NCBI GenBank assembly: GCA_001548435.1
Contig: AP017308.1
Coordinates: 3,481,030 to 3,545,029, forward strand
Origin: Leptolyngbya sp. NIES-3755
GTDB lineage: Bacteria > Cyanobacteriota > Cyanobacteriia > Leptolyngbyales > Leptolyngbyaceae
Direction of reading: 5' to 3'
Length of the DNA: 64,000 nucleotides
A program made the translations under genes and the position numbers. The notes below the pieces were generated by a model. The model did no database searches. It had not been told where the DNA came from and saw only the letters and a list, made by a program, of their open reading frames with translations. Positions 3,603-22,516 of this stretch are shown here, piece after piece. Position 1 is the stretch's first letter. Every line of letters starts with the position of its first letter.

Positions 3603-3762
3603 ATAGCACGTCAACTGAGGGCATGACTCACTATTCATACCGCAAAACGACACAGAATCGACTTAAAATCTGAAATTTACTGCCGATCGACGGTCCAACT
3701 TCGATCGAAAATAAAAGATGTACAATGTTCCAAGTTTTGGTATGATATAAATCCTGTCATCT

Positions 3763-3849
3763 GGAGAGATGGCCGAGCGGTTTAAGGCGCAGCACTGGAA
3801 ATGCTGTGATGGGGTAACTTATCCGAGGGTTCGAATCCCTCTCTCTCCG
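3763..3849 (+). tRNA. tRNA-Ser (anticodon GGA), phage attachment target
   Basis: An 87-base class II tRNA. The acceptor stem is GGAGAGA/TCTCTCC. The anticodon stem CAGCA/TGCTG encloses the loop CTGGAAA, giving anticodon GGA (decodes UCC). It has a long serine-type variable arm and a T loop TTCGAAT with discriminator G. CCA is not encoded. Bases from 3773 onward are also the left attachment core of the prophage, so the present 3' part was probably supplied by the phage and keeps the tRNA functional. Confidence 0.96.
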
Positions 3850-3850
3850 T
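3773..3850 (+). repeat. attL core (78-bp direct repeat, copy 1)
   Basis: Identical over 78 bp to 45276-45353 and diverging on both sides. The segment covers tRNA-Ser from the D arm to one base past the discriminator. The core is unusually long but normal in kind for a tRNA-targeting tyrosine integrase. Confidence 0.92.
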
Positions 3851-4194: not shown

Positions 4195-4344
4195 TTGTTC
4201 TTTTTATTTAGTTGATTGTTATTTGGTTTTAGAAATGTTGTGCCCGCTGTTTATCGATGCAGGAAAACATATCTTAACAATAGTTCGAGAAAAATGTTGG
4301 TACGGCTTCCTAATATAAAAGTACTGAAAACACGGTACTCAGAC

Positions 4345-4686
4345 ATGACAAAGAAGCGCCCCCGACTGTTGAAAGAGACTAAAAATCTGGCGATGCTGAT
4401 AGCGATGACCGTCCGAAATGAAATGGAAGACTTTCACTGCGAACATTTAACTGATGATCAAATGCAGGAATTAAATCCAATTATTAGAAACGCGATCGTA
4501 ACGGCACTATACGCGGCTAGAAACTACTCCGAAGATGCAGCCTCAATGGAGTGGGTCAACTTTCAATTCAGGTTGATTCCCGAATACTGGGAAGAACCTC
4601 AACTCACTGAAAGTTTTCTTAGATTAGCTAAATCACTCCAGAAGAAAGGCATCAATGAGTCCAAAGACAGTGCTCGTCTATCTTAA
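4345..4686 (+). CDS. hypothetical prophage protein, 113 aa
   Basis: ATG at 4345 gives MTKKRPRLLKETKNLAMLIA. The product looks mostly helical, charged and soluble, with no transmembrane segment, and has a serine-rich tail. An in-frame extension up to 4216 exists but has an unlikely composition. It is convergent with the small gene at 4683 and overlaps its stop by a few bases. I do not recognise a family. Confidence 0.5.
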   Translation: MTKKRPRLLKETKNLAMLIAMTVRNEMEDFHCEHLTDDQMQELNPIIRNAIVTALYAARNYSEDAASMEWVNFQFRLIPEYWEEPQLTESFLRLAKSLQKKGINESKDSARLS

Positions 4687-7190: not shown

Positions 7191-7245
7191 AAAAGGAACT
7201 TTATTAAGTGTGGTGAAGTGCAATCAACTTAATAAAGTTCCTTTT
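7191..7245. repeat. 19-bp perfect inverted repeat
   Basis: AAAAGGAACTTTATTAAGT at 7191-7209 and its exact complement at 7227-7245, with a 17-base loop. Each arm contains one AAAG-NNN-CTTT site. It could act as a bidirectional terminator or as a binding site. Confidence 0.8.
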
Positions 7246-7315: not shown

Positions 7316-7597
7316 TCAAATTTTTATCAAATCGCGTTCATCGATCCAGTTCCTACCACTTTTGATCGCATTCAGGATCACCCGATTAAAAACCATAGGA
7401 TTGAAGTACAAATCATCATTATCATCCACCAACGTAAAATATTGTTCAATACCTCTCCCAGTCTTCTTCTTTAGTTTTTCATTCCTATTTAACCAAGCTT
7501 TTCTTTGATTGAGCGACATAAAGGTGAATTGCTTGAGAGTGATGAGATCCGCGAGATCGTCGAATTCCGCGAGAATGTAAACGTCGTCGAGTGTCAT
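7316..7597 (-). CDS. 93-aa paralogue of the polymerase-like protein C-terminus
   Basis: Residues 36-86 (LNRNEKLKKKTGRGIEQYF then NAIKSGRNWI) align with the last 60 residues of the large neighbouring protein (WLKEKSGYGMEQFF then AAIDEGKQWI). The shared pattern is K-x-G-x-G-x-EQ-aromatic-F followed by AI-x-x-G-x-x-WI. It is on the same strand and downstream of that gene, separated from it by a 23-bp-stem hairpin. The function of the shared domain is unknown to me. Confidence 0.6.
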   Translation of the reverse strand: MTLDDVYILAEFDDLADLITLKQFTFMSLNQRKAWLNRNEKLKKKTGRGIEQYFTLVDDNDDLYFNPMVFNRVILNAIKSGRNWIDERDLIKI

Positions 7598-7642
7598 AAA
7601 GTAATAACCAATTTATTAGAGTTAAACAGTCGAATCATTGAA

Positions 7643-7711
7643 ATATCGAAAAGGTACTTTTGAACTTCGACTCAGAAGTTAAGCGACGGTTCAAAAGTAC
7701 CTTTTCGATAT
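7643..7711. repeat. 23-bp perfect inverted repeat between polymerase-like gene and its paralogue
   Basis: Left arm 7643-7665 begins ATATCGAAAAGGTACTTTT; the right arm at 7689-7711 is its exact complement, with a 23-base loop. Each arm holds an AAAG-NNN-CTTT site (7650, 7694). There is no T run directly after either arm, so a simple terminator is not the best reading. It lies 34 bp after the stop of the large gene and 46 bp before the start of the small one. Confidence 0.8.
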
Positions 7712-7745
7712 CTAACAAGAGCGAAGTAACCCGCCCTAAAATCAA

Positions 7746-10673
7746 TTATTTGAATGGCGTGAAATGAGGATGGACATGGTGAATCGTCTTCTTAGAATTA
7801 CCTCTTCCACCAGCCGGGACGATCCATTGCTTCCCTTCGTCAATCGCAGCCTGAATCTCTTTTAACGCTCTGGCGTAGTCTAATGTCCCGTCAGGATTGA
7901 GGAAGAATTGCTCCATACCGTAACCAGACTTCTCTTTTAACCACTCGTTGGTTTTATCCCAAGACACAAACTGAGCGTGATCCTGCCAGAAAAATCCAGA
8001 TAGACTGATCGGACGCAACCAAAACACGTGTTCAGTGCTATCCCCAGCAAACAACCCGTTATCTTTCACCACATTATCAGAAGCTGAATCATAGCGTCGA
8101 TTAGCATCATCACATTTGACAATCTGGCTGAATGTCTGAGGTTCATAAGGTGGAATTGCATGAGGATTCTGATCGAGATCAGTGAAGAAATCCAGGATAC
8201 GACTCTGCTCCTTACCATTCTCGTATTTAAATGAATCATCAGAATTCAAGTCAAAACCCCCAGAACCACGAGCTTTCGTTAAAGGTTTTACACCCTCGTT
8301 AACATGATGAAACTGATAATCGGTCTGGGATCTGAACAGGGCTTTTGTGTAAACGTCTTTGATATCGAAACTCATCTCCGTCAAACACTGAATTTCTGGC
8401 TTAGTACCTGTAGGTCTGAAGAAATGAACCACATGAGCTTTTAGCATCTCATTCAGTTCAGTCCACCCGCCAGCTTTACGCTCCCAGGAAACAACATCAT
8501 TAGAAAGAATCGAGTACTGATCCTCACCTTCAGTTCGACCAGGAGCCAACTTCCACTCACCCTGATTACCGAGAGGATAACTGATTAAATCAGCTCTTGT
8601 TTTACGGTTTACTAAAGATAGGTCGCGCCATAAGCTCAAGGTATTCATTGAAGGCTTCTTGTCTCCACTCCAGTCTCTCACCTCATTCAGATTGAACGGA
8701 AATCCATCAGTAATAACAACATTTCCACCAGAAGCGATAGCACCACACCAAGCAGCGGTTCGCATCATACCTGTAATCGAGTTTGAAACCACCGGATTAC
8801 CTACATCAAAGCTAAGACTGGCTCCCACACCATACAAAGTATTACCTGATAGCTTCATCGACCCTTGTTGTGCATCGAACATTAGATACTCGTCAGTCCC
8901 CTTGATCGTTAACTTTAATTCTGCTTTAAGTCGCTTTCTTTCGTCGGCATAGGGTTGGAGAAAAACAACAATTGGAATAGCTAACCAATAGTGCGATCGA
9001 TTATCGATTTCAACAGGCTTACCCTTGATAATCTTTTTCACGATTTCATTCCCATGCTCTTCCACATGAGCTTTGGTTTTCTCGAACCACTCTTCAGGGG
9101 TGTGACACATCTTTGATCGAGGATACCAAGCAGCGGATACTACCTCTAATTTCTCCCACTCAGACCATTCACGATCAGAGCAAACATTCTTTAGACACTG
9201 CAATGTATCAGAGGTCAGGGGCGAATTAATTAACTCGTGTGAATAGAATCTAAACTCAGCGGGAATCTTGGCAGAATCAGGATCATACTTCTCGCTGATC
9301 TCAACAGCATCAATGACTTTACTGGGAACAAGACTTTGATGATGGCTCAATTTACCCGACACAAAGATCACATAACCTCGATCAACTAACTCGCTGCCAT
9401 GCTCTTTGAGGAACTGACCCAGCGTTTTGGAGGTGGTAATGTCATTCTTATGGCGACCCCAGCTAAACGGGATTCCAACCGGGTAATTCATCGTACACTG
9501 AATCGTGACATACCCACTTTGGTAGTCCGCATCAGCAATCACACCTTCACTTTTAAACTCAGTAGGCCTCATATTCTTCGCCATTCCACCCGCAACCACA
9601 CCTAAAACAGCTTCGGTAGAATCTTTGATGGTCGCAAAGTGATCTAGACTCGAATCGTGAAGAAGATCCCGTAGACTGTAATCTTGAACCTCAGAGTTCA
9701 ACCCCTTTGTCTTAAAAAACTTATAGGCACAATATTCACCAATATATTTATCGATGAAAGCCACAAATAGATTCTCGACCGTTCTCCCAATCGTCAGCTT
9801 CTCAACACCATCTGGAACCAGACCATGAACCGCATAGAGCATTCTTTCGCGCTCCATATTAGCCTCCCTCAATGGAAACAGAATCGTACTATCAGGCTTA
9901 GAGTATTTGATATAGACGGGGTGTAAGGTCGGATCTTGATAAGGTACGAGCATATCCTTCTTGTAGTGATCCATCAAACGCTTACTCGGCATCTTTAACC
10001 CAAATGAGAGCGCAACTGTCTCTAAATTACCAGCAGCGATCCGACTCAAATCAACGATCTTTAAAGCCAATCGAACATACCCAATGGGAGCATTTAAGTA
10101 AACAGGCAGAATTAAGATATCGGGATGTCGTCTTTCACCGGATTCAATTCTCATTCGACCATCTTGACGAAGATGCTTCTGGATATGCTTACAGGTTTCA
10201 ACATCGAATAAAGCTCTCAAGACATCCGCTGGAGCAAAAAAGACGAGAACTTCAAGCACCAGGATCGCACTCACATCATAAACAGAAGGAGATTGACTGC
10301 GACTCTTAGATAATTCAATTTCAGACCAACCAATTAAAGTGGAAAACAAGGATTTACCATTCCAGGTTGGCTCTAAACCTAATCCAAGATCGGGATGTTC
10401 AAACACATAACAATCACTTGAATTAGAGCTAAAACTAGGTTGAGTCGTAATCATCAAATTAACCTGATTAACTCGCTGTTTATACTCAGAATCACTAGCC
10501 ATAGTAATCATAGACGTAGGCTTATTACCGATTCTGTAAGGGTGAGGACGAACGAAGTTAAGTACGTTCTTGTTACCTTCAACTAACGCAGCAAGCTTGA
10601 TCTTATTCTCTTTTTCGGATAACATAGGTGTATGAAAAGGATTTGAATTCAACCCATCTTTTGCACCCAGCAT
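7746..10673 (-). CDS. divergent family B DNA polymerase-like protein (protein-primed type), 975 aa
   Basis: Numbering is from ATG 10673; a TTG at 10703 would add 10 residues. Signals in order: an exonuclease-II-like segment IVDLSRIAAGNLETVALSFG near residue 210; a motif A-like IADADYQSGYV with Asp381 and Asp383, followed by NYPVGIP as in phi29-type enzymes; motif B KLSGNTLYG (Lys607 to Gly615), matching K-x-x-x-N-S-x-Y-G; and a motif C-like VVITDGF with Asp656, where the usual DTD has become ITD. Order and context fit PolB, but spacing A to B (about 225 residues) is long. No terminal-protein gene is recognised. Likely role: replication of the phage genome. An alternative is an inactive relative. 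Confidence 0.55.
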   Translation of the reverse strand: MLGAKDGLNSNPFHTPMLSEKENKIKLAALVEGNKNVLNFVRPHPYRIGNKPTSMITMASDSEYKQRVNQVNLMITTQPSFSSNSSDCYVFEHPDLGLGLEPTWNGKSLFSTLIGWSEIELSKSRSQSPSVYDVSAILVLEVLVFFAPADVLRALFDVETCKHIQKHLRQDGRMRIESGERRHPDILILPVYLNAPIGYVRLALKIVDLSRIAAGNLETVALSFGLKMPSKRLMDHYKKDMLVPYQDPTLHPVYIKYSKPDSTILFPLREANMERERMLYAVHGLVPDGVEKLTIGRTVENLFVAFIDKYIGEYCAYKFFKTKGLNSEVQDYSLRDLLHDSSLDHFATIKDSTEAVLGVVAGGMAKNMRPTEFKSEGVIADADYQSGYVTIQCTMNYPVGIPFSWGRHKNDITTSKTLGQFLKEHGSELVDRGYVIFVSGKLSHHQSLVPSKVIDAVEISEKYDPDSAKIPAEFRFYSHELINSPLTSDTLQCLKNVCSDREWSEWEKLEVVSAAWYPRSKMCHTPEEWFEKTKAHVEEHGNEIVKKIIKGKPVEIDNRSHYWLAIPIVVFLQPYADERKRLKAELKLTIKGTDEYLMFDAQQGSMKLSGNTLYGVGASLSFDVGNPVVSNSITGMMRTAAWCGAIASGGNVVITDGFPFNLNEVRDWSGDKKPSMNTLSLWRDLSLVNRKTRADLISYPLGNQGEWKLAPGRTEGEDQYSILSNDVVSWERKAGGWTELNEMLKAHVVHFFRPTGTKPEIQCLTEMSFDIKDVYTKALFRSQTDYQFHHVNEGVKPLTKARGSGGFDLNSDDSFKYENGKEQSRILDFFTDLDQNPHAIPPYEPQTFSQIVKCDDANRRYDSASDNVVKDNGLFAGDSTEHVFWLRPISLSGFFWQDHAQFVSWDKTNEWLKEKSGYGMEQFFLNPDGTLDYARALKEIQAAIDEGKQWIVPAGGRGNSKKTIHHVHPHFTPFK

Positions 10674-10795
10674 CAGGTGGGTTATTGTTTTTGGAAAAAT
10701 CAATGTTTTAGATATCTGTATGACAAAAACAGATAAAAAGAAATAAAAAGAAGGAAGGAAAAAAAATGAACGACTTAGCGGCTGATCACTAACGA

Positions 10796-11008
10796 TTACG
10801 TTAACTTACCTTCACTACGATAATAATACCTTAAAATCTCTCTTACACGAGCCGAAATATTAGTACCGTAGTCTACACATTCACATTCTAAAAGCTCAAA
10901 CAAATCCCGATCAAATCGGATCGATTTTGGACTCGTATAATCACCTTCAAAAGGGCGACCTCTTCTACATTCAACTTCATTAAACATCGTATTAATTCTG
11001 TAATTCAT
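10796..11008 (-). CDS. ribbon-helix-helix-like DNA-binding protein, 70 aa
   Basis: ATG 11008 is chosen over a TTG at 11056 whose leader is hydrophobic; ATG 10987 is also possible. The C-terminal two thirds (SPKSIRFDRDLFELLE then YGTNISARVREILRYYY) has the short beta strand plus two helices of Arc/MetJ/CopG proteins. It lies upstream of the polymerase-like gene on the same strand and beside the hairpin-rich non-coding region, so it may control replication or bind there. This is inference. Confidence 0.5.
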   Translation of the reverse strand: MNYRINTMFNEVECRRGRPFEGDYTSPKSIRFDRDLFELLECECVDYGTNISARVREILRYYYRSEGKLT

Positions 11009-11944
11009 AATTACAAGATAACAAAAATAAAAAGATAAAAGTGGGATGATCTGCAATACCGATCAACAACTCAAATTTAAATAAGGAAAACTTATTTAAA
11101 TACAATTACCAACAGATTAAAGAACAGTAGGAAAAACTAGATCTAGGGTTGAAAACAATGAAAATCTGGACGATCTAAAATTCAAAAATCTTAGTGCGCC
11201 TGGGTCGAGAAAAAAGCAAAAAAAGCCACCCTAGGCGCATAAAAAATCCTTGATTTATAAGGATTTCAGGCTAAACCCCCCCATATAGAGGGGATAGGCG
11301 GCCCCCGAATAGGGTTTCACTTAAATCCATCCACTTAAAGAAGACCGCCGCCCGCTTAAATTAAACATTCTCTCTAAGCCCTCTAATCAGTCCATTAAGC
11401 CCCTTTCTATTTAATTAAGCTATGGACAGCTATAAACAACATCAATGAGCTTTAACGATCGAAATAGAGCCACCTTTTAAATTCGACTTAAATCGATCCA
11501 GATTCATTAATTCGTACTCTAATTAAATCCATATCTAGTGTTTGACATTTAGCATCTAGTAATAAATACTTAACTAAATAAGAATCGATCGACATGAAAA
11601 AGAGGCTGCTCACCCTCTCCTTTTAGTCATTAATTCAATTAATCGTCTTTCCGTTTCGATTTATTTTTCCATAGTTCAATTAAACAAATTCAATCAAAAC
11701 TTCAGTTAATCGATTCGCCACCTCTACTGCATCTTCTCTATTTCAAATCTGTATTTCTCTTCAATAAGTTCCTTTTCTTCTTATAACGTTCTTTTAAAGT
11801 GATCAGAGAGAAAAGAGAATGCGATTTATATTAGGTTTCAAATTGATTTGGACATTGTTTCCTGGCGTGAGGCACCATCCCAAAACCTGAAAAAGCTCTA
11901 ACGGGTTAATCAGGTTGTTACGCTCTAAAAGTTACGGAAATTAT
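11009..11944. other. gene-free, hairpin-rich region; candidate replication origin or ncRNA
   Basis: About 0.9 kb without a convincing gene. It contains an 11-bp palindrome at 11075-11101, an imperfect GC-rich hairpin (TGCGCCTGGGT 11195-11205 with ACCCTAGGCGCA 11228-11239), an AAATCCTT/AAGGATTT hairpin (11244-11266) and a C-run/G-run structure at 11273-11317. A long AT-rich tract with many TTAATTAA-like words follows to about 11800. Just before the next gene, a leader hairpin AACCTGA/TCAGGTT occurs at 11884-11916. It fits an origin or a structured leader, but I cannot tell which. Confidence 0.5.
11075..11101. repeat. 11-bp AT-rich palindrome
   Basis: ATTTAAATAAG/CTTATTTAAAT with loop GAAAA, 66 bp upstream of the small ribbon-helix-helix gene. 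It is a possible operator of that gene or part of an origin. Confidence 0.6.
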
Positions 11945-12301
11945 ATGACCTACATCAATTTAACTACTAATTTAGATCGGATGAAAAAGGATCAATTTCA
12001 ATCCTTTTTACTTGAGTTGCGGGAAGTTTTCAAAAATTCCCGACACACGAGGAATAAGGAAATGGTTATACTTCTCGATCGGTTCCTGTCTGTGGAATGT
12101 TATGTGCATGATGCAGAACAGTTACTCTCCCTTGAAAGATGTGAAGGGCAACTGTGGATAGACGGCTGGCTTAGTTTAAGTTCGTCGATTAAGGATGAAA
12201 CTGACGCTCAAGTTCAAGCTGTTGTCGATCGAGTTTCAGCCATTGATGTTGAGTTAGATCGATTGGCTAATCTGTCAATCGTCGCCAAGATTCCTGATTG
12301 A
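11945..12301 (+). CDS. hypothetical prophage protein, 118 aa
   Basis: ATG 11945 gives MTYINLTTNLDRMKKDQFQ. The product is helical, acidic and soluble. No ribosome binding site is obvious; a structured leader precedes it. It is convergent with the minus-strand gene at 12342 and shares a terminator with it. No family recognised. Confidence 0.5.
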   Translation: MTYINLTTNLDRMKKDQFQSFLLELREVFKNSRHTRNKEMVILLDRFLSVECYVHDAEQLLSLERCEGQLWIDGWLSLSSSIKDETDAQVQAVVDRVSAIDVELDRLANLSIVAKIPD

Positions 12302-12310
12302 TATTAGTGG

Positions 12311-12338
12311 AAAAGGAGGGTGTCACAGCCCTCTTTTT
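12311..12338. terminator. bidirectional terminator
   Basis: AAAAGGAGGG/CCCTCTTTTT with an 8-base loop and one G-T pair. A run on one side and T run on the other let it work in both directions between convergent genes. Confidence 0.8.
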
Positions 12339-12341
12339 ATT

Positions 12342-13019
12342 TTAATTACTCGAACCAAAAATAACCCGCAAATCCTCTTCAACCTCATTTCGAATCATTT
12401 CAAACCTTTCAGCTCCGATTGCAATTAAACATTCTTCAAAAGTCAAATAATATCGTCTACTCCTCGTCTCTTTTCCCTTCTTATTCAAAATAACTTCGCT
12501 ATACGGTTCATACCCTAACCGATATTTAATAAAATTCTTAATATCATACGCCCGTCTTCCCATCATTCGACATAGATAAGAATATTCCATCCTCGTAATA
12601 CCATCAGTTTCGATTAATTTAACCAAATTAATATCAAAATCTCGCGCCTTAAACTGTTTTAGAATCGCCAATTGCTCATCGATCACGTTGAAATTCTTAT
12701 AGCCTTGAACATTTTCAGCAGATTCCTTCCCTTCGATTCTCTGCCTAATAAAATCAACGAAATAATGTCGATTCGATCGGATCTTTTTAGAATCTAATCC
12801 CAATTCTTTCATTCTCTCTAATGAATGGAATCCCAAAATATCGAGTTTAGATTCACGCCATAAATCATTTCGTTCATTAATAAAACAATCAAGCGCCTCT
12901 CTCATCGTTTCATACGAATATATTTTTCCTCCAACTGCATCAAAGTGAGGTCTTTTAAACGCAAATTCAGTCTCAAAATAAGTCGCAACTGCCACTTTTT
13001 CTGGATATTTAATAGGCAT
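12342..13019 (-). CDS. hypothetical prophage protein, 225 aa
   Basis: A basic, helical protein. It contains YETMREALDCFINERNDLW, RRAYDIKNFIKYRLGYEPY and YYLTFEECLIAIGAERFEM. A segment around LVKLIETDGITRMEYSYLCRMM may be a helix-turn-helix, which would suit an early-region regulator. I do not recognise a family, and the role is unknown. Confidence 0.5.
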   Translation of the reverse strand: MPIKYPEKVAVATYFETEFAFKRPHFDAVGGKIYSYETMREALDCFINERNDLWRESKLDILGFHSLERMKELGLDSKKIRSNRHYFVDFIRQRIEGKESAENVQGYKNFNVIDEQLAILKQFKARDFDINLVKLIETDGITRMEYSYLCRMMGRRAYDIKNFIKYRLGYEPYSEVILNKKGKETRSRRYYLTFEECLIAIGAERFEMIRNEVEEDLRVIFGSSN

Positions 13020-13173
13020 ACATTTAATTTAATTAATTCAACTACTCTATTTTCATCTATTTGTCAGTCGATTTCTACCTGAATATATAGGCACTTTAAC
13101 TATTAAAATAGCCCACAAAGATCGACCATCTTTCTATTATTCTCTAATTATCTAAATTGAGAATTCCTTCTAT

Positions 13174-14001
13174 ATGAAACTAACTAAATCGGCGGTGGAA
13201 GCTGCCTTTCAGACTTTAATTAATGAACCTAATTCATCTGTTCGTAAGATCGCCTCTCGTTTTGGAGTAGATGAATCAACGCTTCGATACAGATTAAAAG
13301 CTACTTTTGGTGAAGATTATATTGAACGATCTAAAGGTGTTCCTGGCAGTCTCCTAAACCTGCTTAGAAAGGACATTATGGACACTTTAAATGACGCTCA
13401 ACGAATCGAAGTAGAACAATGGATCAAAGAGAATATCGCCTCACTTACGGTTGATCAAGGATTACTTACAAGCGCTCAAGAAAATCGCCTCACTTACACT
13501 GAATGTGGAAAGAATCACGATCTATTAGAAATGCTTCCTAACTCGATCTACTTAAACAATTGTCTAAACAATAAATACGAATCTGTTCCCGTCCCCTTTA
13601 AAGAATCTGCTGCTGTAACCGTTAATGAACCTTCCCCTAACTCAACTTCATACGTTAACCTGATCGATCTAGAATCTGTTCTAATCGACTTTTACTCCAA
13701 CACCTTAGATAACTGCGACTCTATTCTCGATCGCATTTATTTACCGCTGAATGAGTGGAGTCCTAATTCTCTTTGGAATCAATGTGACTCTATTCTGATC
13801 GCATCTTGTTTGAATGAGTTATCCAGTTTAGATCGTGCTGCTTTAGGATTCAAACTCGCGCCGCTCATTCCACTCGAATACGAACTTGTACTGGCACATC
13901 ATTATCTTTATTGTTCTCGCACTCAATTTAATGAGTTCGTTGAAAGTAACTTTTTTGATGCGCTCGATCGTTTAGCTCAAATATTAATTAAACAACTTTG
14001 A
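13174..14001 (+). CDS. helix-turn-helix protein, 275 aa
   Basis: Residues 1-55 form a Psq/resolvase-like helix-turn-helix (AVEAAFQTLINEP then SVRKIASRFGVDESTLRYRL), similar to the DNA-binding part of transposases and of some small terminases. The remaining 220 residues are acidic and rich in leucine, asparagine and serine, without a recognised domain. It is the first plus-strand gene before the late operon, so it could be a late-gene activator or packaging-related; this is inference from position. Confidence 0.6.
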   Translation: MKLTKSAVEAAFQTLINEPNSSVRKIASRFGVDESTLRYRLKATFGEDYIERSKGVPGSLLNLLRKDIMDTLNDAQRIEVEQWIKENIASLTVDQGLLTSAQENRLTYTECGKNHDLLEMLPNSIYLNNCLNNKYESVPVPFKESAAVTVNEPSPNSTSYVNLIDLESVLIDFYSNTLDNCDSILDRIYLPLNEWSPNSLWNQCDSILIASCLNELSSLDRAALGFKLAPLIPLEYELVLAHHYLYCSRTQFNEFVESNFFDALDRLAQILIKQL

Positions 14002-14075
14002 GAAATTCCCGCGATATAGGTTTGAAAGTATTTTCAAGTTGTTAATATTAAATTATATTAAGCTCTCTTTTTGTT

Positions 14076-14462
14076 ATGAAAAAACGCCCTCCAAAGTGTG
14101 ATTTAGTTGGTCAGAAATTTGGGTTTCTAGAGGTTATTTCATTTATTGGAAAAAACCATAGAAGTGAGAATATTTGGCAATGTCTGTGTGACTGTGGAAA
14201 CTATCATAAAGCTGCTGGTTATCAATTAAAGCGCCTCTCTATTTCAAGTTGTGGTTGTCGTAAAACTGTCGGGGCTGTCACACATGGTCTTAGTCGGACT
14301 CGTGAGTATGGTATCTGGAATCAAATGAAGGATCGATGTTCAAATAGAAATAAAGTTTATTACAAAGATTACGGTGGAAGAGGTATTAAAGTTTGCGATC
14401 GATGGTTAGATTCTTTTGAGAATTTTCTTCAAGATATGGGTCCTCGTCCTTCCCGTTTGTAA
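14076..14462 (+). pseudogene. free-standing HNH endonuclease, 5' fragment, split by the IscB element
   Basis: Residues 1-65 are the zinc-binding module (CDLVGQKFGFLEVISFIG, CLCDCG, SSCGCRK). Then comes the start of the HNH region: YGIWNQMKDRCSN, YYKDYGGRGIKVCDRW, FLQDMGPRPS. At that point the frame enters the inserted element and stops. The missing half, beginning PEHSLDRINNNGDYCPENCRW, continues in frame at 16058. Removing 1604 bp restores one open reading frame. The family is phage-borne and promotes its own spread by cutting DNA. Confidence 0.85.
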
Positions 14463-14716
14463 ATGTGTACCCACATCTACCCAGAACTAATCACTTTGGG
14501 TAGGTGTTGCAAACGTGCAGGAACAGGTTCAGACCTACATTGATTGAGTCATGACACCCTCGAATGAACGCCAGTTCGTTGCTCTGTCAACCGATTTTAA
14601 GCAAAGAAGTAATCACATATAGCTTCGAGTGAATCGGTTCTAAAAAGCTCTTTCAATATTTCCGAGGCAAACATCACTTGTACTTTCAAGGACTGGTCAA
14701 ACCGACCAATACAACT
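14455..14716 (+). ncRNA. predicted omega RNA of IscB
   Basis: IscB works with a guide RNA encoded just upstream of its gene. This 262-bp non-coding stretch has the left-end hairpin and several further pairing segments. By analogy with known OMEGA systems, the guide would be taken from the sequence just left of the element, that is the HNH gene around 14435-14454. Only position and foldability support this call. Confidence 0.5.
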
Positions 14717-15997
14717 ATGAGTAACTACGTTTTCTTAATTGATGCCAACAAAAAAAGAATGAATCCCATTCATCCCGCCCATGCTCAAAAGCTAATGGAT
14801 GCAGGTAAAGCAGCAGTTTTCAGACGATTTCCTTTCACCTTGATCATGAATCGGGTTGTCGAAAACATAGTTACATATCCACTGAAACTCAAGATTGATC
14901 CGGGTTCTAAAGTGACAGGTATCTCACTTGTCAATGATCAAGATCAAGTGATTTGGGGAATGGAACTTGAACATCGAGGTAACACGATCAAAAGTAATTT
15001 GGATAGCAGAAGATCTGTTCGTAGAGGTAGAAGAAATCGAAATACTAGATATCGTAAACCTCGATTTCTTAACAGAAAAAGATCGAAAGGATGGCTTGCA
15101 CCATCACTAATGCACCGAGTTTTAACAACTGAAACATGGGTAAAAAGATTGATTAAATTCGCACCTGTAACTGAAATTGTTCAAGAACTTGTACGCTTTG
15201 ATCTTCAGAAAATGGAAAACCCTGAAATTTCCGGTGCTGAATATCAGCAAGGAACTTTGCATGGATATGAAATTCGTGAATATCTTCTGAACAAATGGGG
15301 TAGAAAATGTACTTATTGCGGTAAGTCTGATGTTCCTTTGCAAGTAGAACATATTCAAGCAAAAGCAAACGGTGGAAGCGACCGCATTTCCAATCTATGC
15401 TTGGCTTGCGAACCTTGCAATTTAAGAAAAGGAACGCAAGATATCAAAGACTTTTTGAAGATAAAATCAGACCTTCTTTTTCGTATTTTGAGACAAGCAA
15501 AAGCGCCGTTAAAAGATGCTGCTGCTGTTAACTCTACCCGATGGAAACTGTATGAAACTTTGAAAGAAACAGGTATTCCGGTATCAACCGGAAGTGGAGG
15601 AAAAACCAAATTTAACCGCATCAAACTTGGACTTGAAAAAGCTCATTGGATCGATGCTGCTTGTGTTGGAAACGTTGAAAAATTGACAATTCTAACCACT
15701 CGAATTTTGCGAGTCAAAGCAACAGGAATGGGAGGTCGCCAAAAATGTCAAACCGATAAATACGGATATCCTCAAAAGCACAGACCACTTAAACCAATTC
15801 ACGGTTTTTGTACTGGAGATATCGTCAAGGTTCAGATTCCAAAAGGTGTAAACAAAGGTAATTACATCGCTCGATTGTGTCCATACAGCGATGGAAATGG
15901 TGAAATCTACCCACGCTCAGGAAAGAAACGGATTGGCATCAAACTCAAATACATTGTCAAAGCAATTCATAGAAAAGATGGCTACAGCTATGCGTAA
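14717..15997 (+). CDS. iscB: IscB RNA-guided nuclease, 426 aa
   Basis: All IscB parts are visible from ATG 14717: an N-terminal PLMP region (FLIDANKKRMNPIHPAHAQK), RuvC-I KIDPGSKVTG, an arginine-rich bridge helix (RRSVRRGRRNRNTRYRKPRF), RuvC-II EIVQELVRFD, an HNH domain with CTYCGK, VEHIQAKANGG and CEPCNLRKG, and RuvC-III HWIDAACVG. Catalytic Asp, Glu, His and Asp are present, so it is probably active. It is the ancestor-type of Cas9. A TTG start at 14678 would extend into the omega RNA and is unlikely. Its host gene is itself an HNH endonuclease. Confidence 0.93.
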   Translation: MSNYVFLIDANKKRMNPIHPAHAQKLMDAGKAAVFRRFPFTLIMNRVVENIVTYPLKLKIDPGSKVTGISLVNDQDQVIWGMELEHRGNTIKSNLDSRRSVRRGRRNRNTRYRKPRFLNRKRSKGWLAPSLMHRVLTTETWVKRLIKFAPVTEIVQELVRFDLQKMENPEISGAEYQQGTLHGYEIREYLLNKWGRKCTYCGKSDVPLQVEHIQAKANGGSDRISNLCLACEPCNLRKGTQDIKDFLKIKSDLLFRILRQAKAPLKDAAAVNSTRWKLYETLKETGIPVSTGSGGKTKFNRIKLGLEKAHWIDAACVGNVEKLTILTTRILRVKATGMGGRQKCQTDKYGYPQKHRPLKPIHGFCTGDIVKVQIPKGVNKGNYIARLCPYSDGNGEIYPRSGKKRIGIKLKYIVKAIHRKDGYSYA

Positions 15998-16057
15998 ACA
16001 TACCCAAACAAGAAGGAATGACCAGATATGTCCAGAAATCAGCGAACAGTTCCTTCC

Positions 16058-16339
16058 CCTGAACACTCGCTCGATCGAATAAATAATAACGGTGATTATT
16101 GTCCTGAGAATTGTCGTTGGGCGAGTAAAGAAGAACAGGCGAATAACAAGAGAAATAATCGGCTAATTACTTATCAAGGAATCACTTTATCGATGACTCA
16201 ATGGGAACGTCGCCTTGGGCTTAATAAGGGGCGTATACGATACAAGGTGAATAAGAAAGGTTTGTCCTTTGAAGATGCTTTAGCTTCGTTGATTTCAACT
16301 GAATTTCCCGCAAACGTAGTACTAGGGGCAGCTTCTTAA
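16058..16339 (+). pseudogene. free-standing HNH endonuclease, 3' fragment
   Basis: This part continues the gene interrupted at 14454: PEHSLDRINNNGDYCPENCRW with the conserved Asp-Arg-x-Asn-Asn and Asn-Cys-Arg-Trp, then KEEQANNKRNN and a C-terminal helix-turn-helix-like or AP2-like part (LSMTQWERRLGLNKGRIRY). An ATG at 16028 lies in the element and could permit translation of a fragment, but it would lack the first half of the catalytic region. Confidence 0.8.
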
Positions 16340-16492
16340 ATCGAAGTGACCTGAATAGAAGGGATTTTCAATTTACTCCGATTAAAAGTTGGGTTATTTT
16401 TGGAAGTCTAAAGGCATAATCCTCGGAAGTTACTTTTAATTTTCGAGGAATTATTTAATCTATATACTATTTAATTATTCAATTTTAAATCT

Positions 16493-16550
16493 TGAGTTAT
16501 TGAAGCGCTTGGAACCTAATTATTCTCTACGATCGCGCTTCAATAACTCA
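16493..16550. repeat. 16-bp perfect inverted repeat upstream of the terminase genes
   Basis: TGAGTTATTGAAGCGC at 16493-16508 and its complement at 16535-16550, with a 26-base loop containing CGATCG. It lies 73 bp before terS with no T run. A site for late-gene control or for packaging initiation is possible; it may also end transcription from upstream. Confidence 0.7.
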
Positions 16551-16622
16551 TTCTAATTATCGTCGTGTTGCAATTTATTCATATTTTGCAAGATCGCCGC
16601 CTTCGTCAGTAGAAAAAATAAT

Positions 16623-17087
16623 ATGAATGAAAAAAGAAGAGGTAGAAACTCGAAGTGTACTCCTGAGTTGATCGAACGTTTCTGCAAAGTTCTACTTGAA
16701 ACAGGATCGATCAAAGACTCTTGTGAAGCTTGCGGTATTGATACTTCGACTTACTGGCGTTGGCGAGAAAAGGACGTTAATTTTCATAGTTCTATTGAGA
16801 CAGCCTTAGCAGAACGATTGAATCGAGCTTCTAAACCGATTTGGAATCGAAGAGAAGTTGCTGAATCCTATGTTGATGATGTACTGGCAGGGCGTAAGTT
16901 TCGAATTAAACGCCGCCAGGTTCTCAGTAAGTCAGGAGAAATCATTGATTTAGTAGACGAAGAACAGGTGATACCCTCGGATGCGCTGCTGGAACGTGTA
17001 CTGGGGGCTCGCCAAGAAGAATCGAATACATCGTTTCAGGTTTCATTCGGCTTAGCTGAACCTCCACAAGAGGAGGAAGATGAATAG
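16623..17087 (+). CDS. terminase small subunit
   Basis: 154 residues with an N-terminal helix-turn-helix (CKVLLETGSIKDSCEACGID then TYWRWREKD) of the kind that recognises the packaging site, a helical middle (FHSSIETALAERLNRA) and an acidic tail ending EEEDE. It overlaps the large subunit start by 8 bp, and position plus size fit TerS. It is the first gene of the late operon. Confidence 0.8.
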   Translation: MNEKRRGRNSKCTPELIERFCKVLLETGSIKDSCEACGIDTSTYWRWREKDVNFHSSIETALAERLNRASKPIWNRREVAESYVDDVLAGRKFRIKRRQVLSKSGEIIDLVDEEQVIPSDALLERVLGARQEESNTSFQVSFGLAEPPQEEEDE

Positions 17088-19353
17088 CCTCAATATTAAT
17101 CTGCATAAACAGCAGCTAAATGTACTGAATCATCCTGCCAAAGTCAAAGTAATTTGCTCAGGTCGTGGATTCGGTAAAGCGCTTAGCTTAGATACACCGA
17201 TTCTCACCTTAGAGGGTTGGAAGTTTATTAGTGAAATTAGAGAAGGTGACTATGTATTCCATCCTTCCGGTGTTCCTACCTTAGTTGTAGCGACTTCAGA
17301 AGTGATGTACGATCACCAGGTTTATGAAGTTAGTTTTTCAGATGGAGCTTCGATAAAAGCGGATGCGGGTCACTTGTGGCTGACTCACACTAAATCGAAT
17401 CGTAAGTCAGCTAGTAGATATAAGAATCCTTCTTTACCTAAGGTCAAAACGACTCAAGAAATCAAAGATACTTTGACAGTCTCAACAAAGAAAGAGAGTA
17501 ATCATTCCATTCCGAATTGTGATGCTCTACAGTTTCCAGGTCAATCACTTCCTATCGATCCTTATGTATTAGGGTGTTGGCTTGGTGATGGTGATTCAAA
17601 AAACTCTGCGTACACCTGTGATGATTTAGAGATTGTTGAGAGTATAAGGGTTTACTACGAAGTAACTAAATACAACGCTCCTTTTCGGTATTGGATAAAA
17701 GGATTAACCTCAGAGTTACGATCCTTGAATCTGTTAGGTAATAAACACATTCCTGATTTATATCTATTTGCCTCTGAAGAACAGAGATTAAAACTTCTAA
17801 GAGGATTGATGGATACTGATGGATCTATTGGTAAGAACGGTGCTTGTGAGTTTTGTAATAAGAATCTGGCACTGTCAGAAGCTGTTGTATTCCTCTTAAG
17901 ATCCCTAGGGCAAAAACCTACGCTCCATGAAAATACGTCTGCTCTATACGGTAAAGATTGTGGTTTTCGTTATAGAGTTCACTTTACACCTACTCCTGGA
18001 TTCAACCCTTTTCAATTAGCTAGGAAAGCTGATCGATTGATTCAGAATCCCTATACGTTTACAACTCAGAGATATATTACGTCAGTCGAAGCTATCCCTT
18101 CTGAGCCTGTTAAGTGTATTCAGGTGGAGTCTTCAGATGGGTTGTTCTTAGCGGGTGAAGCATTGATTCCGACTCATAACAGTCGTCTTCTCAGAGCTGA
18201 TGCAATTAAAGCAATTTTCACCTTTAAGGGAATTTTTGATCCTGAATCGCCACAGGAAGTTTGCTTAATTGCACCCACCTTAAAAATGTGCCGCGCTCTC
18301 CACTGGGATTCATTGCTTACCTTATTTGAGAATTGTCCTCTTGTTAAGCGAATTGATCGAACCAACTATCGTTTCTACTTTCACGGTAACTTACCTATAC
18401 TTTCACTTGTTGGAGTTGATGATGGAGGAGAAAGACTACGAGGTAAGAACTTAGTTTGGGCTGGATGTGAAGAGTTTCAGCTATTCGGCTCCAGTGTTTG
18501 GGATGAAATCATTACTCCTTGCTTTAGAGATCCATCAGGTTGTTTTGGTGGAATGAGCGTTGGAACTCCAAAAGGAAAAAGCTCCTTTTTCTACCAGTTC
18601 CATCTTCGCGCTCTTAGTACACCAGATTGGGTTTACTTCCATTTCAAGTCAGAAGATAATCCCTTTCATCCGAAATCCTTAAGAGAGCAAGCTAAGTTAA
18701 TTCTGCCTCCCAAAACGTACTTACAAGAATACGAAGCATCGTGGGAAACCTTTTCTGGACAGCTTTACACTGAATTTGATGATCGACATATTGTTGACAC
18801 CTTACCGGATTCGTTTGATTCAGTGTGGATGGGACTCGATCACGGTGAAGTAAATCCTTCCTTAACGGTAATTGGATTAAAGGACAGTCGATACTACTTG
18901 ATTGATGCTTGGTATAACAAAACTCAAGCTCCAATTACACAAGAGGAAGTGAATCAAGCTGTTCTCAAGCTTTGCGTCAAGCACAACGTTTATCGAGTCT
19001 ACAGTCCTGATGATCGACCTTCTGTAGTTGTTGCTCTTAGGCGTTTAGGTGAAGCTCAGAACGTCCCTGGATTAAAAAGAGCGGTTACTTCTCCTCGAAA
19101 TAAGCCTGGTGTCTTAGAAGGAATCGCAATCATTAACAGTCTCTTCTACCAAGATCGCCTCTTTGTCCATCGGTCATTAGAGCAAGTGATTCAAAACATT
19201 CGCAGCTATCACAAAGCTCAAGATCGTGAGGGAAACATTTTAGAGAAGGTTGCTGAGAACCAGTCTGACCACGACTTAGATAGTTTTCGATGCGTAATTC
19301 CTCAAATAGAGATTAAACATAACTTCCCTGGTGTCCATCTGCAAGCTGCTTAA
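17080..19353 (+). CDS. terminase large subunit containing an intein
   Basis: 757 residues as encoded; removal of a 334-residue intein leaves 423, a usual TerL size. The ATPase P-loop CSGRGFGK is followed by the intein and then Ser368 completes GKS. The Walker B region LVWAGCEEF and the motif MSVGTPKGKSSFFYQF follow. The nuclease domain starts at WMGLDHGEVNPSLTVIG and has further acids near YSPDDRPS and QSDHDLDSFR. The enzyme packages DNA into the prohead and cuts it. Because the intein splits the P-loop, no packaging can occur before splicing. Confidence 0.92.
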   Translation: MNSLNINLHKQQLNVLNHPAKVKVICSGRGFGKALSLDTPILTLEGWKFISEIREGDYVFHPSGVPTLVVATSEVMYDHQVYEVSFSDGASIKADAGHLWLTHTKSNRKSASRYKNPSLPKVKTTQEIKDTLTVSTKKESNHSIPNCDALQFPGQSLPIDPYVLGCWLGDGDSKNSAYTCDDLEIVESIRVYYEVTKYNAPFRYWIKGLTSELRSLNLLGNKHIPDLYLFASEEQRLKLLRGLMDTDGSIGKNGACEFCNKNLALSEAVVFLLRSLGQKPTLHENTSALYGKDCGFRYRVHFTPTPGFNPFQLARKADRLIQNPYTFTTQRYITSVEAIPSEPVKCIQVESSDGLFLAGEALIPTHNSRLLRADAIKAIFTFKGIFDPESPQEVCLIAPTLKMCRALHWDSLLTLFENCPLVKRIDRTNYRFYFHGNLPILSLVGVDDGGERLRGKNLVWAGCEEFQLFGSSVWDEIITPCFRDPSGCFGGMSVGTPKGKSSFFYQFHLRALSTPDWVYFHFKSEDNPFHPKSLREQAKLILPPKTYLQEYEASWETFSGQLYTEFDDRHIVDTLPDSFDSVWMGLDHGEVNPSLTVIGLKDSRYYLIDAWYNKTQAPITQEEVNQAVLKLCVKHNVYRVYSPDDRPSVVVALRRLGEAQNVPGLKRAVTSPRNKPGVLEGIAIINSLFYQDRLFVHRSLEQVIQNIRSYHKAQDREGNILEKVAENQSDHDLDSFRCVIPQIEIKHNFPGVHLQAA
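17179..18180 (+). other. intein in TerL P-loop (alanine-1, LAGLIDADG type)
   Basis: 334 codons, residues 34-367. The N-terminal splicing residue is Ala (ALSLDTPILTLEGW) instead of Cys or Ser, as in class 2 inteins that skip the first acyl shift. A block B-like ADAGHLWLTH supplies the histidine. The homing endonuclease has both dodecapeptides: LGCWLGDGDS and LLRGLMDTDGSIG. The C-terminus LIPTHN followed by Ser is canonical. All residues for splicing by the Ala1 route and for DNA cutting are present. Confidence 0.92.
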
Positions 19354-19363
19354 ACCTACTTTT

Positions 19364-20899
19364 ATGAATTACCCCGATCGATTAAAGCTAATCTATCTAG
19401 AAAGTGAACATCCAGAGTACACCGCCTCAAAAGATCTCTATGTTCAACTCACTCATTTAACTCAAGGGGGTGTCCTGCTTGAGCAAAATAAAGAGCGGTA
19501 TCTACCTAAAAGAGCAGGCGAAACTGATGAGATTTACAAAACGCGCCTGAATAAGTTCACTTACACCAATGTCACGTCTAGCGCCCTTACTCAGCAAGTG
19601 ACTAAGCTTAGTAGCGGTGCTTATACGATTAATGGCTTAGAAGCGAATCAGTCTTTCTGGACCTCCTTTAGAGAAGATGTAAACTGTAATGGGCTTTCAG
19701 AGTTACAGCTGCTTCAGAAACTCTTTCGAGATGCGTTGGTTTATAAAAAGCTCTTTGTTCACGTTGATAAACCCAGGACAACTGTACAGCCTCGTAACAA
19801 GCTTGAAGAAGAGCGGCTTAACATTCGACCCTATCTCACGATTTACTCTGCTTGTGAAGTGATCGATTGGGTTGAGAACAATAACGCCCTTCAAATGGTC
19901 AAAGTCAAACAGTTCTCACAGCATCGAGAAACGTTACTCAGTCCTCCAATTGATAAAGTTACTTATACGATCATCACCGCTGAAATGATTCTGAGGTACT
20001 CAGCCTTAGTTCGACTCGTCAAAGGTAAGATCGTCGCCCTTCTAGATACAGAAGGAAAGGAACTTTCACTTGTAGACGAAGACACATCCATACAGATCGA
20101 TTACCCTCCGATTCTGCATAGGTTTGGTACGTTGCCTGTATTCAAGTTCGAGTTACCGGATGAACTTTGGGCAGGAAATCAAATCTACCTCAAAGCAAAA
20201 GAACATTTAGTTCTCGATAATGTTCGATTTGACATGGCTTCAATGGCTTATGTGCAAAGAATACTCACGCCTCAAATCACGCCTGAATCGGATCTTACCC
20301 AAACTTACACCGAAGGAGAAACCATTCTCTCAGGCAATCCTTTCATTTTAAAAGCTGCCGACTTCAAGTTCGCTGAGCTAAAAGGAGATGTCCTCAATAC
20401 ATTAACTTCTCTCCTTGCAGATTTAGAAGCACAAGTGAAAGATACACTCAGCCTTGGAGGAATGTCAGCAGATAAAAGAGCGATCGAACAAAGTGGAGTC
20501 TCAAAGAAACTAGATTTCGCACTACAAGAATTGGTCTTGAGATCCTATGGTTCTCTCTTACTTGACTTCTACCAAAATGTTTTACAGGCGGTAGGAAAAG
20601 CAACTGGACAATCGAATGAAAGTGTCAGTAGTATATCGGCTTCTGGATTTACCAGTTTCGACTTAGATAATGCAGATGAATTGATTGTTAAAGCACTTGA
20701 TCTTTTGAGACTGCAAAACTTCCTTACCCCAACCACATTTCGTTTATTCGCTCAACAACTCAATCGAGCTTTAGTTCCCAATGCCAGTGCAGAAGAACAA
20801 GCCCTCATTGATAAAGATCTTGAATCTAAATCTCTAGAGCTATCGGCAAGCTCGTTAAACCCCGAACTGCTCACCGTCAGCACAACGGCGGACACCTAA
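19364..20899 (+). CDS. portal protein
   Basis: 511 residues from ATG 19364 (MNYPDRLKLIYLESEHPEY), 8 bp after the terL stop. It has the portal pattern of an N-terminal clip region, a long middle (LQLLQKLFRDALVYKKLFVHV) and a long helical C-terminal stretch (LADLEAQVKDTLSLGG). Position between terL and scaffold/capsid supports the role: the dodecameric ring through which DNA enters. An upstream TTG at 19331 overlapping terL is less likely. Confidence 0.82.
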   Translation: MNYPDRLKLIYLESEHPEYTASKDLYVQLTHLTQGGVLLEQNKERYLPKRAGETDEIYKTRLNKFTYTNVTSSALTQQVTKLSSGAYTINGLEANQSFWTSFREDVNCNGLSELQLLQKLFRDALVYKKLFVHVDKPRTTVQPRNKLEEERLNIRPYLTIYSACEVIDWVENNNALQMVKVKQFSQHRETLLSPPIDKVTYTIITAEMILRYSALVRLVKGKIVALLDTEGKELSLVDEDTSIQIDYPPILHRFGTLPVFKFELPDELWAGNQIYLKAKEHLVLDNVRFDMASMAYVQRILTPQITPESDLTQTYTEGETILSGNPFILKAADFKFAELKGDVLNTLTSLLADLEAQVKDTLSLGGMSADKRAIEQSGVSKKLDFALQELVLRSYGSLLLDFYQNVLQAVGKATGQSNESVSSISASGFTSFDLDNADELIVKALDLLRLQNFLTPTTFRLFAQQLNRALVPNASAEEQALIDKDLESKSLELSASSLNPELLTVSTTADT

Positions 20900-20926
20900 A
20901 CTTTATAGGAATTTATCAATTTACTT

Positions 20927-21499
20927 ATGGATGAGAATCAAGTTAAAGAACTCTTCGGACAACTGTTCGATCAGTTCAAACAAAGTCTTCTAACTGAAGT
21001 CGATCAAAAGAACGGGAAATTAGCTGCTTCTTTAGAGCGTCAGATGAAAAAAGAAAAGCCTCCAGAACCCGCTTCAGAAGATGATCCTTCAAAGTTGTCG
21101 ATGAAAAGTCTTCAACAGCAAATAGAATCTCTTAAAAATGAGCTTGCTGAGAAAGATAAAGTCGCTTTCACCGCTGATCGTAATTCAGCAATCAGTAATG
21201 TAATCGCGTCTTCTAATTCTCAAAACAAAGCAACTCTGATGAAACTATTCTCGATTCAGTACGGGGATAAGCTTCAGAAAGAGAACAATAACTGGTTCAT
21301 TGAAGAAAACGGCGCTGTCAAATCTTTAGAAGACTGTCTCAGTAATTACCTCACTTCAGAAGAAGGAAAGATCTTTGTTCCTCCGACTTCAAATGAAGGC
21401 AGTGGAAGTACATCCTCAAGTAAACCTGTTTTAAGTACAAATACTCCTGCCAGCTTAGACGATATCTACCAAGACTTCGCCTCACGTCTGGTCGGTTAA
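20927..21499 (+). CDS. capsid scaffolding-like protein
   Basis: 190 residues, highly charged and helical, with coiled-coil propensity around SMKSLQQQIESLKNELAEKD and a low-complexity linker (SNEGSGSTSSS) before a C-terminal helix. This composition and the position directly before the major capsid gene are those of scaffold proteins, which guide prohead assembly and then leave. No protease motif is seen. Confidence 0.72.
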   Translation: MDENQVKELFGQLFDQFKQSLLTEVDQKNGKLAASLERQMKKEKPPEPASEDDPSKLSMKSLQQQIESLKNELAEKDKVAFTADRNSAISNVIASSNSQNKATLMKLFSIQYGDKLQKENNNWFIEENGAVKSLEDCLSNYLTSEEGKIFVPPTSNEGSGSTSSSKPVLSTNTPASLDDIYQDFASRLVG

Positions 21500-21523
21500 C
21501 GAACTCAATAACAAATAAAAACA

Positions 21524-22516
21524 ATGCCATTAATTTCTACTGATTTTCTCGTACCGCCTGAAATTCTTCGCGGTGAAATAGAACAAACTCTTACTTCCGC
21601 CAAGTTGCTCGATTATCCGATGCTGAACGTCATCTCTAAAGAAGACGTGTATCAATCAGAACTCCAGTGGCCAGTAAATTTGGGCGGATCGGGGGCGAGT
21701 GGACGGGCTACCAGTGCGGCTCCAGGTGTTTCGACTCAAGATACGGTTAAACAAGCAGCTTTACCGATCGGTGGACGAGTCATCAACCATGTCTTCTCTC
21801 TCAACTTGAATGAAGTGGTACAAGCGGCTCGTACTGCTCCTCAAGCTTTGAAGAATCTATTACGTTCTCATATTCAATCGGGTTCAGAAGCCATCTTAGA
21901 GCGGCTCTCTACTCTGGTTTATACAGGAGACGGAACTGATCCTTCTGACGGTGTGATTGGTTTAGATAAAGTAGTGGATGCTACATACGCCTACGCAGGA
22001 CTTGATCCAGTCACCTATACTCGCTGGACCTCTTATGTCAATACCAGCGGTACGAACCGCGCCTTAACGACTGATCTCTTGTTCGATGTTGAATCAGGAA
22101 TGGCAACGAAAGGCGGAACTTATTCTGCTGTATTCATGAATCCTTCTCTGGTTGTCAAATACAAGAAGGTTTTTGAGAATCGTTTAGCGGTTGATCAAGT
22201 AAACGGAGTTGCAGATCTTGGCTTTTCAGGTCTCGCGCTATCGGGTCGTCCAATCATCATGGACCCCCGCTCTACTAACAACAACATTTACTTTGTCAAT
22301 GGTGCTGATGTTAGTCTCTGTACCTTTGCTTTGAATGCTGCAATTGGTCAACTCAGCTTACCTTCTCTGATTGTCAACGTCCAAGGGCTTAATGTTCTTA
22401 TCTCTCAACTCCCAATCTCCAATCCTCATGTTGTGACTTATGAAATGAGCGTTCAAGCACAGCTAAAGGTTAAGAATCGTCGCTCTGTCGCTCTCTTAGG
22501 TAAAATTACTCAGTAA
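21524..22516 (+). CDS. major capsid protein
   Basis: 330 residues of HK97-fold type by pattern: an N-terminal arm, an E-loop-like glycine and serine stretch (NLGGSGASGRATSAAPG), LRSHIQSGSEAILERLS before a glycine-rich turn (VYTGDGTDPSDGVIG), and AVFMNPSLVVKYKKV then GRPIIMD, typical of phage capsid proteins. It lies after the scaffold and before connector genes. Confidence 0.83.
   Translation: MPLISTDFLVPPEILRGEIEQTLTSAKLLDYPMLNVISKEDVYQSELQWPVNLGGSGASGRATSAAPGVSTQDTVKQAALPIGGRVINHVFSLNLNEVVQAARTAPQALKNLLRSHIQSGSEAILERLSTLVYTGDGTDPSDGVIGLDKVVDATYAYAGLDPVTYTRWTSYVNTSGTNRALTTDLLFDVESGMATKGGTYSAVFMNPSLVVKYKKVFENRLAVDQVNGVADLGFSGLALSGRPIIMDPRSTNNNIYFVNGADVSLCTFALNAAIGQLSLPSLIVNVQGLNVLISQLPISNPHVVTYEMSVQAQLKVKNRRSVALLGKITQ

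Follow-up and report, generated by a model that had tools for sequence, protein, structure and literature searches.

The DNA analysed here is a stretch of 64,000 nucleotides from Leptolyngbya sp. NIES-3755 (contig AP017308.1), referred to below as the window. On its minus strand lies the gene of a divergent family B DNA polymerase (PolB), which belongs to a 41.6 kb prophage and is some 3.9 kb away from the left end of it. The open reading frame (ORF) encodes 985 amino acids from a TTG start, or 975 from the in-frame ATG at 10673, the latter being the ORF of the original prediction. Residues are numbered in the 985 amino acid form, in which D383, K607, Y614 and D656 of that prediction become D393, K617, Y624 and D666. 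The 6.76-Mb genome has one full copy of the polymerase, plus a C-terminal fragment at 7316-7597. The gene, its motifs and the main features of the prophage are listed below, with conservation given for alignments A1 (13 rows) and A3 (20 members).

7746-10703, minus, including the stop: PolB_SITDG-type DNA polymerase gene (ORF, conserved motifs, predicted fold)
10485-10493, minus: ExoI motif D71-x-E73, at least 90% conserved in A1 and A3
10050-10052, minus: D218, the likely ExoII Asp, invariant in A1
9891-9905, minus: ExoIII motif Y267-x3-D271, invariant in A1
9510-9533, minus: motif A, D391..D393..Y398 (DADYQSGY); D393 and Y398 invariant in A1, D391, D393 and Y398 in A3
8829-8855, minus: motif B, KLSGNTLYG (K617-G625); K617, N621, Y624 and G625 invariant in A1 and A3
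8703-8714, minus: motif C, ITDG (664-667) with the single Asp D666, invariant in A1
3762-3850, plus: tRNA-Ser(gga), of which 3773-3850 is attL (ARAGORN; 78-bp exact repeat, 81 bp at 99%)
45276-45353, plus: attR, the right copy of the 78-bp att core (exact repeat)
43894-45096, minus: tyrosine integrase adjoining the right att copy (Pfam Phage_integrase, 3.9e-11)
16623-22516, plus: packaging and head genes TerS, TerL, portal, scaffold and major head protein (PHROGs; homologs in L040 and G340)

The prophage is bounded by the exact 78-bp att repeat, one copy of which is inside the tRNA-Ser gene, and carries tape-measure and lambda-J-like tail genes (PHROGs). The att repeat, the tyrosine integrase and the head and tail genes together bear out the predicted setting, a tRNA-integrated temperate phage of siphovirus type. 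An IMG/VR viral contig of 41.8 kb overlaps the prophage and is identical to the window over the 13.4 kb compared (7316-20703); the border of this contig does not coincide with the att site.

Motifs, predicted fold and placement within family B

The four residues named in the original prediction (D393, K617, Y624 and D666) are identical in 13 of 13 rows of A1, as are N621 and the ITDG of motif C, and the motifs are therefore no chance matches. Invariant residues in both alignments confirm the PolB order of motifs A, B and C, and the long distance between motifs A and B that had been pointed out amounts to 224 residues. The predicted single Asp of motif C was also found: the window polymerase reads VITDG with D666 only, the relative L040 reads SITDG, and T665, D666 and G667 are invariant in A1 and A3 alike. 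The residues of a DEDDy 3'-5' exonuclease (D71, E73, D218, Y267 and D271) are at least 90% conserved in both.

The spacing from the Lys of motif B to the Asp of motif C is 49 residues in the window polymerase and in 20 of the 21 readable family loci, the exception being L034 with 54 (24 rows were counted, L033, L039 and L041 being unreadable and L035 and L040 being one contig). The same spacing is 74-90 residues in four protein-primed PolBs and 55-63 in four T4-like or haloviral PolBs. With 49 residues against 74-90 there is no room for a TPR2 insertion. An extra block, estimated from the spacings at about 120 residues, is found between motif A and the fingers at the position of TPR1, and has the order strand-helix-strand-helix in the predicted structure. 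Its score against the phi29 TPR1 profile does not exceed the background, as 4 of 40 column shuffles score at least as high.

Single-sequence family scans recognise the protein poorly. Pfam DNA_pol_B matches the window polymerase at E 0.0034, below the family cut-off, and PHROG 36870, a family with no function, matches at E 1.9e-6. Among the 20 members of A3, Pfam DNA_pol_B was found in three and DNA_pol_B_2 in two; in the NCBIfam scan (E <=0.1) the commonest row, a B-family polymerase, was found in 4/20, and the best E among B-family polymerase rows was 5.7e-7. A profile search of solved structures gave no match at E 1 with A1 and 12 weak rows with A3; ten of these rows are DNA polymerases, two have no relation to them, and the best is an archaeal PolB (E 0.0099).

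The AlphaFold (AF2) model of the polymerase (pLDDT 79.6, pTM 0.82) matches solved B-family polymerases, as the check for a palm fold proposed in the original prediction called for. With Foldseek the B-family match has E 3.2e-8, and archaeal, eukaryotic and viral enzymes are matched. VIA superposition on Tgo gives Z 12.8 (422 residues at 7.4 A) and superposition on phi29 polymerase a tied Z of 12.3 (488 residues at 4.5 A); over all superpositions on phi29 polymerase the range is 488-498 residues at 4.4-4.6 A. The structure matches in BFVD include several protein-primed polymerases. The motifs and the predicted fold thus agree with the claim of a divergent family B DNA polymerase.

The profile comparisons (hhalign), made with small reference sets, lean towards kinship with the phi29-type enzymes rather than with T4, Pol II and the haloviruses. 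Over the whole length, the match to eight phi29/PRD1-type sequences has E 1.3e-6, with the alignment running from the ExoIII region to motif A, and the match to six T4/Pol II/halovirus sequences has E 7e-4, with the alignment at motif B. Of the shorter segments, two gave a match: the one between motifs A and B has E 6.7e-6 against 8.2e-5, and the one that starts at motif B has 5.9e-5 against 1.3e-4, each time in favour of the phi29/PRD1 set; the aligned length after motif B is longer with the T4 set (39 columns against 22). Between the two reference sets themselves the match has E 2.1e-10, better than that of the family to either of them, so that the deeper placement is tentative. In the profile and phi29 structure comparisons that had been proposed, the polymerase comes near to phi29-type enzymes, which speaks for the original prediction.

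Kazlauskas et al. 2020 (PMC7544198) defined PolB_SITDG, in cyanobacteria and algae, by a motif C that has lost its first Asp, and see the group as distantly linked to PolBmain. Among the open-licence papers searched, the name PolB_SITDG appears in one. The window enzyme is likewise a cyanobacterial PolB, with a hydrophobic residue in place of that Asp, and L040 has the SITDG sequence exactly; by this signature of motif C the window polymerase fits PolB_SITDG. The suggestion of a new replication type was not upheld, the signature being that of a group already named. There are two differences from the description of the group in PMC7544198. It names cyanobacteria and algae, whereas the family is found here also in a lineage of temperate phages and on linear plasmids that encode telomere resolvases, and it places the group nearer PolBmain, whereas the profile tests here lean to the phi29 type.

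Relatives and the polymerases of sister prophage regions

The nearest relative (46% identity) comes from the viral contig L040, where it adjoins homologs of TerS, TerL, portal, scaffold and head genes. L040 is the same contig as L035 (a Myxacorys metagenome-assembled genome) and, judged by the spacing of its genes, the element of genome G185 as well; it was counted once. A search of 50,697 phage records with the window polymerase found no relative (tblastn, E <=0.01), and three other family members found none at E <=1. When the contigs of species genomes were scanned with the alignment as query, 21 loci were obtained, 20 of them cyanobacterial and one planctomycete; the same scan with the single window protein gave no match. 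The family profile at E 0.001 matches 7 of 386 genomes of the phylum, five of them over a long stretch; G072 (six in-frame stops) and G031 (a match over 73 positions) were not counted as true members. Within the host family, 4 of 42 genomes match the window polymerase (P0001).

Relatives are also found on ten plasmid records, all cyanobacterial. Half of these are circular and at most 16.3 kb, the smallest circles being 4.6 kb; one further record, of 26.8 kb, was deposited as circular and has annotated protelomerase and terminase genes. Three are linear and have telomere resolvases that are 62-70% identical among themselves, and one record of 9.5 kb is marked linear. On the circular plasmids of 4.6-5.5 kb the polymerase is the sole non-overlapping ORF above 145 amino acids. 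Plasmid L012 (4576 bp) has, besides the polymerase, one non-overlapping ORF of at least 80 amino acids, with 90 amino acids, and L005 and L006 have little more coding content.

Two kinds of neighbour recur in parts of the family. Telomere resolvases stand beside the polymerase on the linear plasmids L014, L015 and L016 and on viral contig L042, and weak homologs occur in L031 and L033. Directly upstream of the polymerase, a conserved ORF of about 145 amino acids is found in each of L014-L016, and another, of about 210-270 amino acids, in L026, L027, L028 and L030 (60-64% identical to that of L028), with weaker homologs in L033 and L034. Two representatives of the latter ORF were scanned and gave no Pfam match. 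At G404:C41:8609-13469 a PolB_SITDG gene adjoins a tyrosine integrase, and the 19 kb examined there contain no homologs of the window head genes; this locus is perhaps an integrated plasmid or a satellite.

The tree of 30 sequences groups the window protein with L040, the Nostoc loci L036, L037 and L041 and the planctomycete locus, with modest support (86/76). Viral contig L042 falls outside this group on a long branch and is unsure in its place. The three telomere-resolvase plasmids (100/100), the protelomerase-plasmid group (seven rows, 100/100) and the small circles all stand apart. With these groups apart, no recent exchange between phages and plasmids is seen in this sample.

Lee et al. 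2016 (PMC4814812) described a novel POLBc clade of homologs of Pp6859 orf4-orf5, found on cyanobacterial and red algal plasmids, in plastids and in a liverwort mitochondrion. Shared with that clade are homologs in cyanobacterial plasmids and genomes, one in a planctomycete and a conserved DG in the metal site, and the Rivularia protein in L013 is as long as the largest clade member (1,242 amino acids). The window family probably overlaps or equals this clade, which differs in being described as plasmid-derived; the word prophage is absent from the main text of PMC4814812. CyRepA and CyRepX are also replication proteins of cyanobacterial plasmids, but they are described as of helicase type (DEXDc, with DUF3854 in CyRepA) and not as polymerases (PMC10079941, PMC10899382). 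A cyanobacterial prophage with a PolB_SITDG-type polymerase was not found described in the parts of the open-licence literature covered.

Sister regions of the prophage were found through the portal gene, which is present in 6 of the 386 genomes and in G408 among the 42 genomes of the host family. Three of the seven portal-bearing genomes have the PolB and no family-A polymerase (G000, G185 and G340), three have a family-A polymerase and no PolB (G042, G245 and G058), and one has neither. The family-A DNA polymerase is divergent, about 490-530 amino acids long, and encoded at the following positions, as well as at the viral loci L069-L076.

G042:C1:1478481-1480046, family-A DNA polymerase
G245:C1:1191598-1193193, family-A DNA polymerase
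G058:C1:2963584-2965044, family-A DNA polymerase

No Pfam match at E 0.01 was obtained for the two members scanned. The assignment to family A comes from the AlphaFold model of a relative on a viral contig, L069 (six sequences; pLDDT 79.2, pTM 0.64), which matches Aquifex Pol I with Foldseek at E 5e-8 and superposes with VIA on Pol theta (Z 18.6) and Klenow (Z 17.5); by this predicted structure the protein is a family-A DNA polymerase. In G042 and G245 its gene has the integrase on one side and the HTH/TerL genes on the other, and in the window and L040 the PolB is on the same side of the HTH/TerL genes. The element in G340 (L041) has a myovirus tail sheath, and PolB_SITDG is therefore not tied to one tail type. 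As two unrelated polymerases replace each other among phages that share head genes, both are best explained as the phage replicase, and replication is the best reading of the role of the window polymerase.

Neighbouring features of the prophage

The surroundings of the polymerase gene hold a second, short piece of polymerase-like sequence, two inverted repeats and a small upstream ORF.

7316-7597, minus: 93 amino acid ORF resembling polymerase residues 899-961 (63 residues near the C-terminus; BLASTP 36%, E 1e-7; family profile E 2.4e-7)
7643-7711, no strand: perfect 23-bp inverted repeat immediately downstream of the polymerase gene
7191-7245, no strand: perfect 19-bp inverted repeat
10796-11056, minus: 86 amino acid ORF 95 bp upstream of the polymerase, a possible regulator by its position and a weak PHROG repressor match (E 0.048)

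The 93 amino acid ORF has a perfect hairpin on each side. Perfect hairpins with a stem of at least 13 bp near the polymerase gene are present at 13 of 30 loci; a role for them as replication origin was considered and not accepted, 17 of the 30 loci having none and the sequences differing by eye. The 86 amino acid ORF has no Pfam match, and no regulator common to the upstream regions of all the polymerase loci was seen.

TerL (17080-19353, plus, 757 amino acids) has an insertion of 333 residues (35-367) within its Walker A region, which is missing from the 60% identical relative in L040 and looks like an intein. The insert matches primase and helicase-loader families, as an intein would. Apart from it, no primase or helicase was recognised in the scanned subset of the prophage proteins. 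The prophage also contains an IscB-like gene (RRXRR and HNH; 14678-15997, plus) and a TnpB/OrfB gene of IS605 type (40932-42176, plus).

Priming, activity and role of the polymerase

There is good reason to think that this PolB_SITDG member, primed without a terminal protein, is the polymerase with which a temperate phage of siphovirus type replicates its DNA, and the enzyme is probably an active replicase of the element. The phage genome would be circular after excision, as the att sites, the integrase and the terminase suggest. The polymerase would copy this circle, with the metals of the B-family palm held by the conserved D393 and D666 and with proofreading by the N-terminal DEDDy exonuclease, to judge from its residues. 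To start a chain, the polymerase would extend a nucleic-acid primer that a host enzyme has made, or begin unaided on the template, with no terminal protein.

Several observations weigh against this reading. The exchange of polymerases holds in six of seven regions, G408 having the portal and neither polymerase; once the pattern had been seen G408 was predicted to carry the family-A polymerase, and this prediction failed. No portal match was found in two of the five family-A genomes (G338 and G343) and in two of the five genomes with a long PolB (G145 and G278). A common slot for the two polymerases is true of some regions only: the PolB of G340 is between the integrase and the tail genes, away from the HTH gene, and the family-A gene and the portal of G058 are about 23 kb apart. 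Some 5 kb from the polymerase of L040 there is a helicase-family match (E 6.9e-9), no biochemical work on PolB_SITDG was found in the open-licence literature, and the single Asp of motif C could mean an altered activity or none.

The region of G408 (G408:C77:287127-295000) has head genes, and apparent host genes follow directly after the homolog of window ORF 4216-4686. With such host-like genes, recognised by eye, beside the packaging end, the region may be defective or cut short.

The original prediction took the polymerase to be of the protein-primed type; in such a reading a terminal protein would start replication, as in phi29. The hhalign matches favour the phi29/PRD1 set over the whole length and in both matching segments, the superposition on phi29 polymerase covers 488-498 residues, and several protein-primed enzymes are among the BFVD matches. 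The enzyme shares with the phi29 type the N-terminal exonuclease and a similar arrangement by superposition, and its extra block stands where TPR1 would be expected, with no profile similarity to TPR1 above background. It differs in having no TPR2, for which the spacing between motifs B and C leaves no room, one Asp in motif C where the first has been lost, no recognised terminal protein and five relatives on circular plasmids. A terminal protein is annotated next to the polymerase in five of eight reference records of protein-primed PolBs (phi29, PRD1, Cp-1, Av-1 and Curie), and the search for one here recognised none: the upstream ORF of the window has 86 amino acids and no companion ORF is common to all loci. 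The search for inverted terminal repeats between the 400-bp ends of the prophage gave no match above 12 bp, and att sites and a terminase are present. The profile E-values and the upstream ORFs of about 145 or 210-270 amino acids, conserved in two subclades and of no assigned function, speak somewhat for protein priming. It is nevertheless improbable, and priming by nucleic acid or self-starting synthesis is likelier.

A sharper form of the preferred reading is that the enzyme is primer-independent: on circular and hairpin elements it would begin DNA chains by itself and serve as an initiator that needs no partner. The piPolBs of pipolins, by their published description, likewise have one Asp in motif C and belong to integrated and plasmid elements; they are highly active without the first Asp (PMC7544198). 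As L012 shares its circle with only a 90 amino acid ORF, the polymerase itself or host factors would have to start replication, and the sparse coding content of L005 and L006 and the lack of a recognised primase or helicase among the scanned prophage proteins, the TerL insert aside, point the same way. Primers could instead be supplied by the host primase or RNA polymerase, and the helicase-family match in L040 also speaks against self-starting, which is at present a tentative proposal. A catalytically dead PolB, acting as initiator or scaffold or carried as cargo with a role in repair or defence, would account for the lost Asp and for the single-sequence Pfam score below threshold. Against this, distant relatives keep the remaining catalytic residues of both sites, and the three sister regions with a family-A polymerase instead fit a shared polymerase task; this reading is very unlikely.

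The polymerase group itself was already known; new here is the exchange of polymerases, in a temperate-phage setting for which no description was found in the open-licence literature searched. For a named group of PolBs this gives a lead to function, since sister regions carry either the PolB or an unrelated family-A enzyme, which points to replication. Among the mobile elements of cyanobacteria, one polymerase family connects small circular plasmids, linear ones that carry telomere resolvases, and temperate phages. It is conceivable, if doubtful, that PolB_SITDG represents a further type of replicase, in which one protein starts and completes replication on circles, hairpin linear plasmids and temperate phages and can be swapped for a family-A polymerase. 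On the 4.6-kb circle with essentially one gene the start of replication is directly testable, and a self-starting polymerase with proofreading would, if true, be a useful enzyme.

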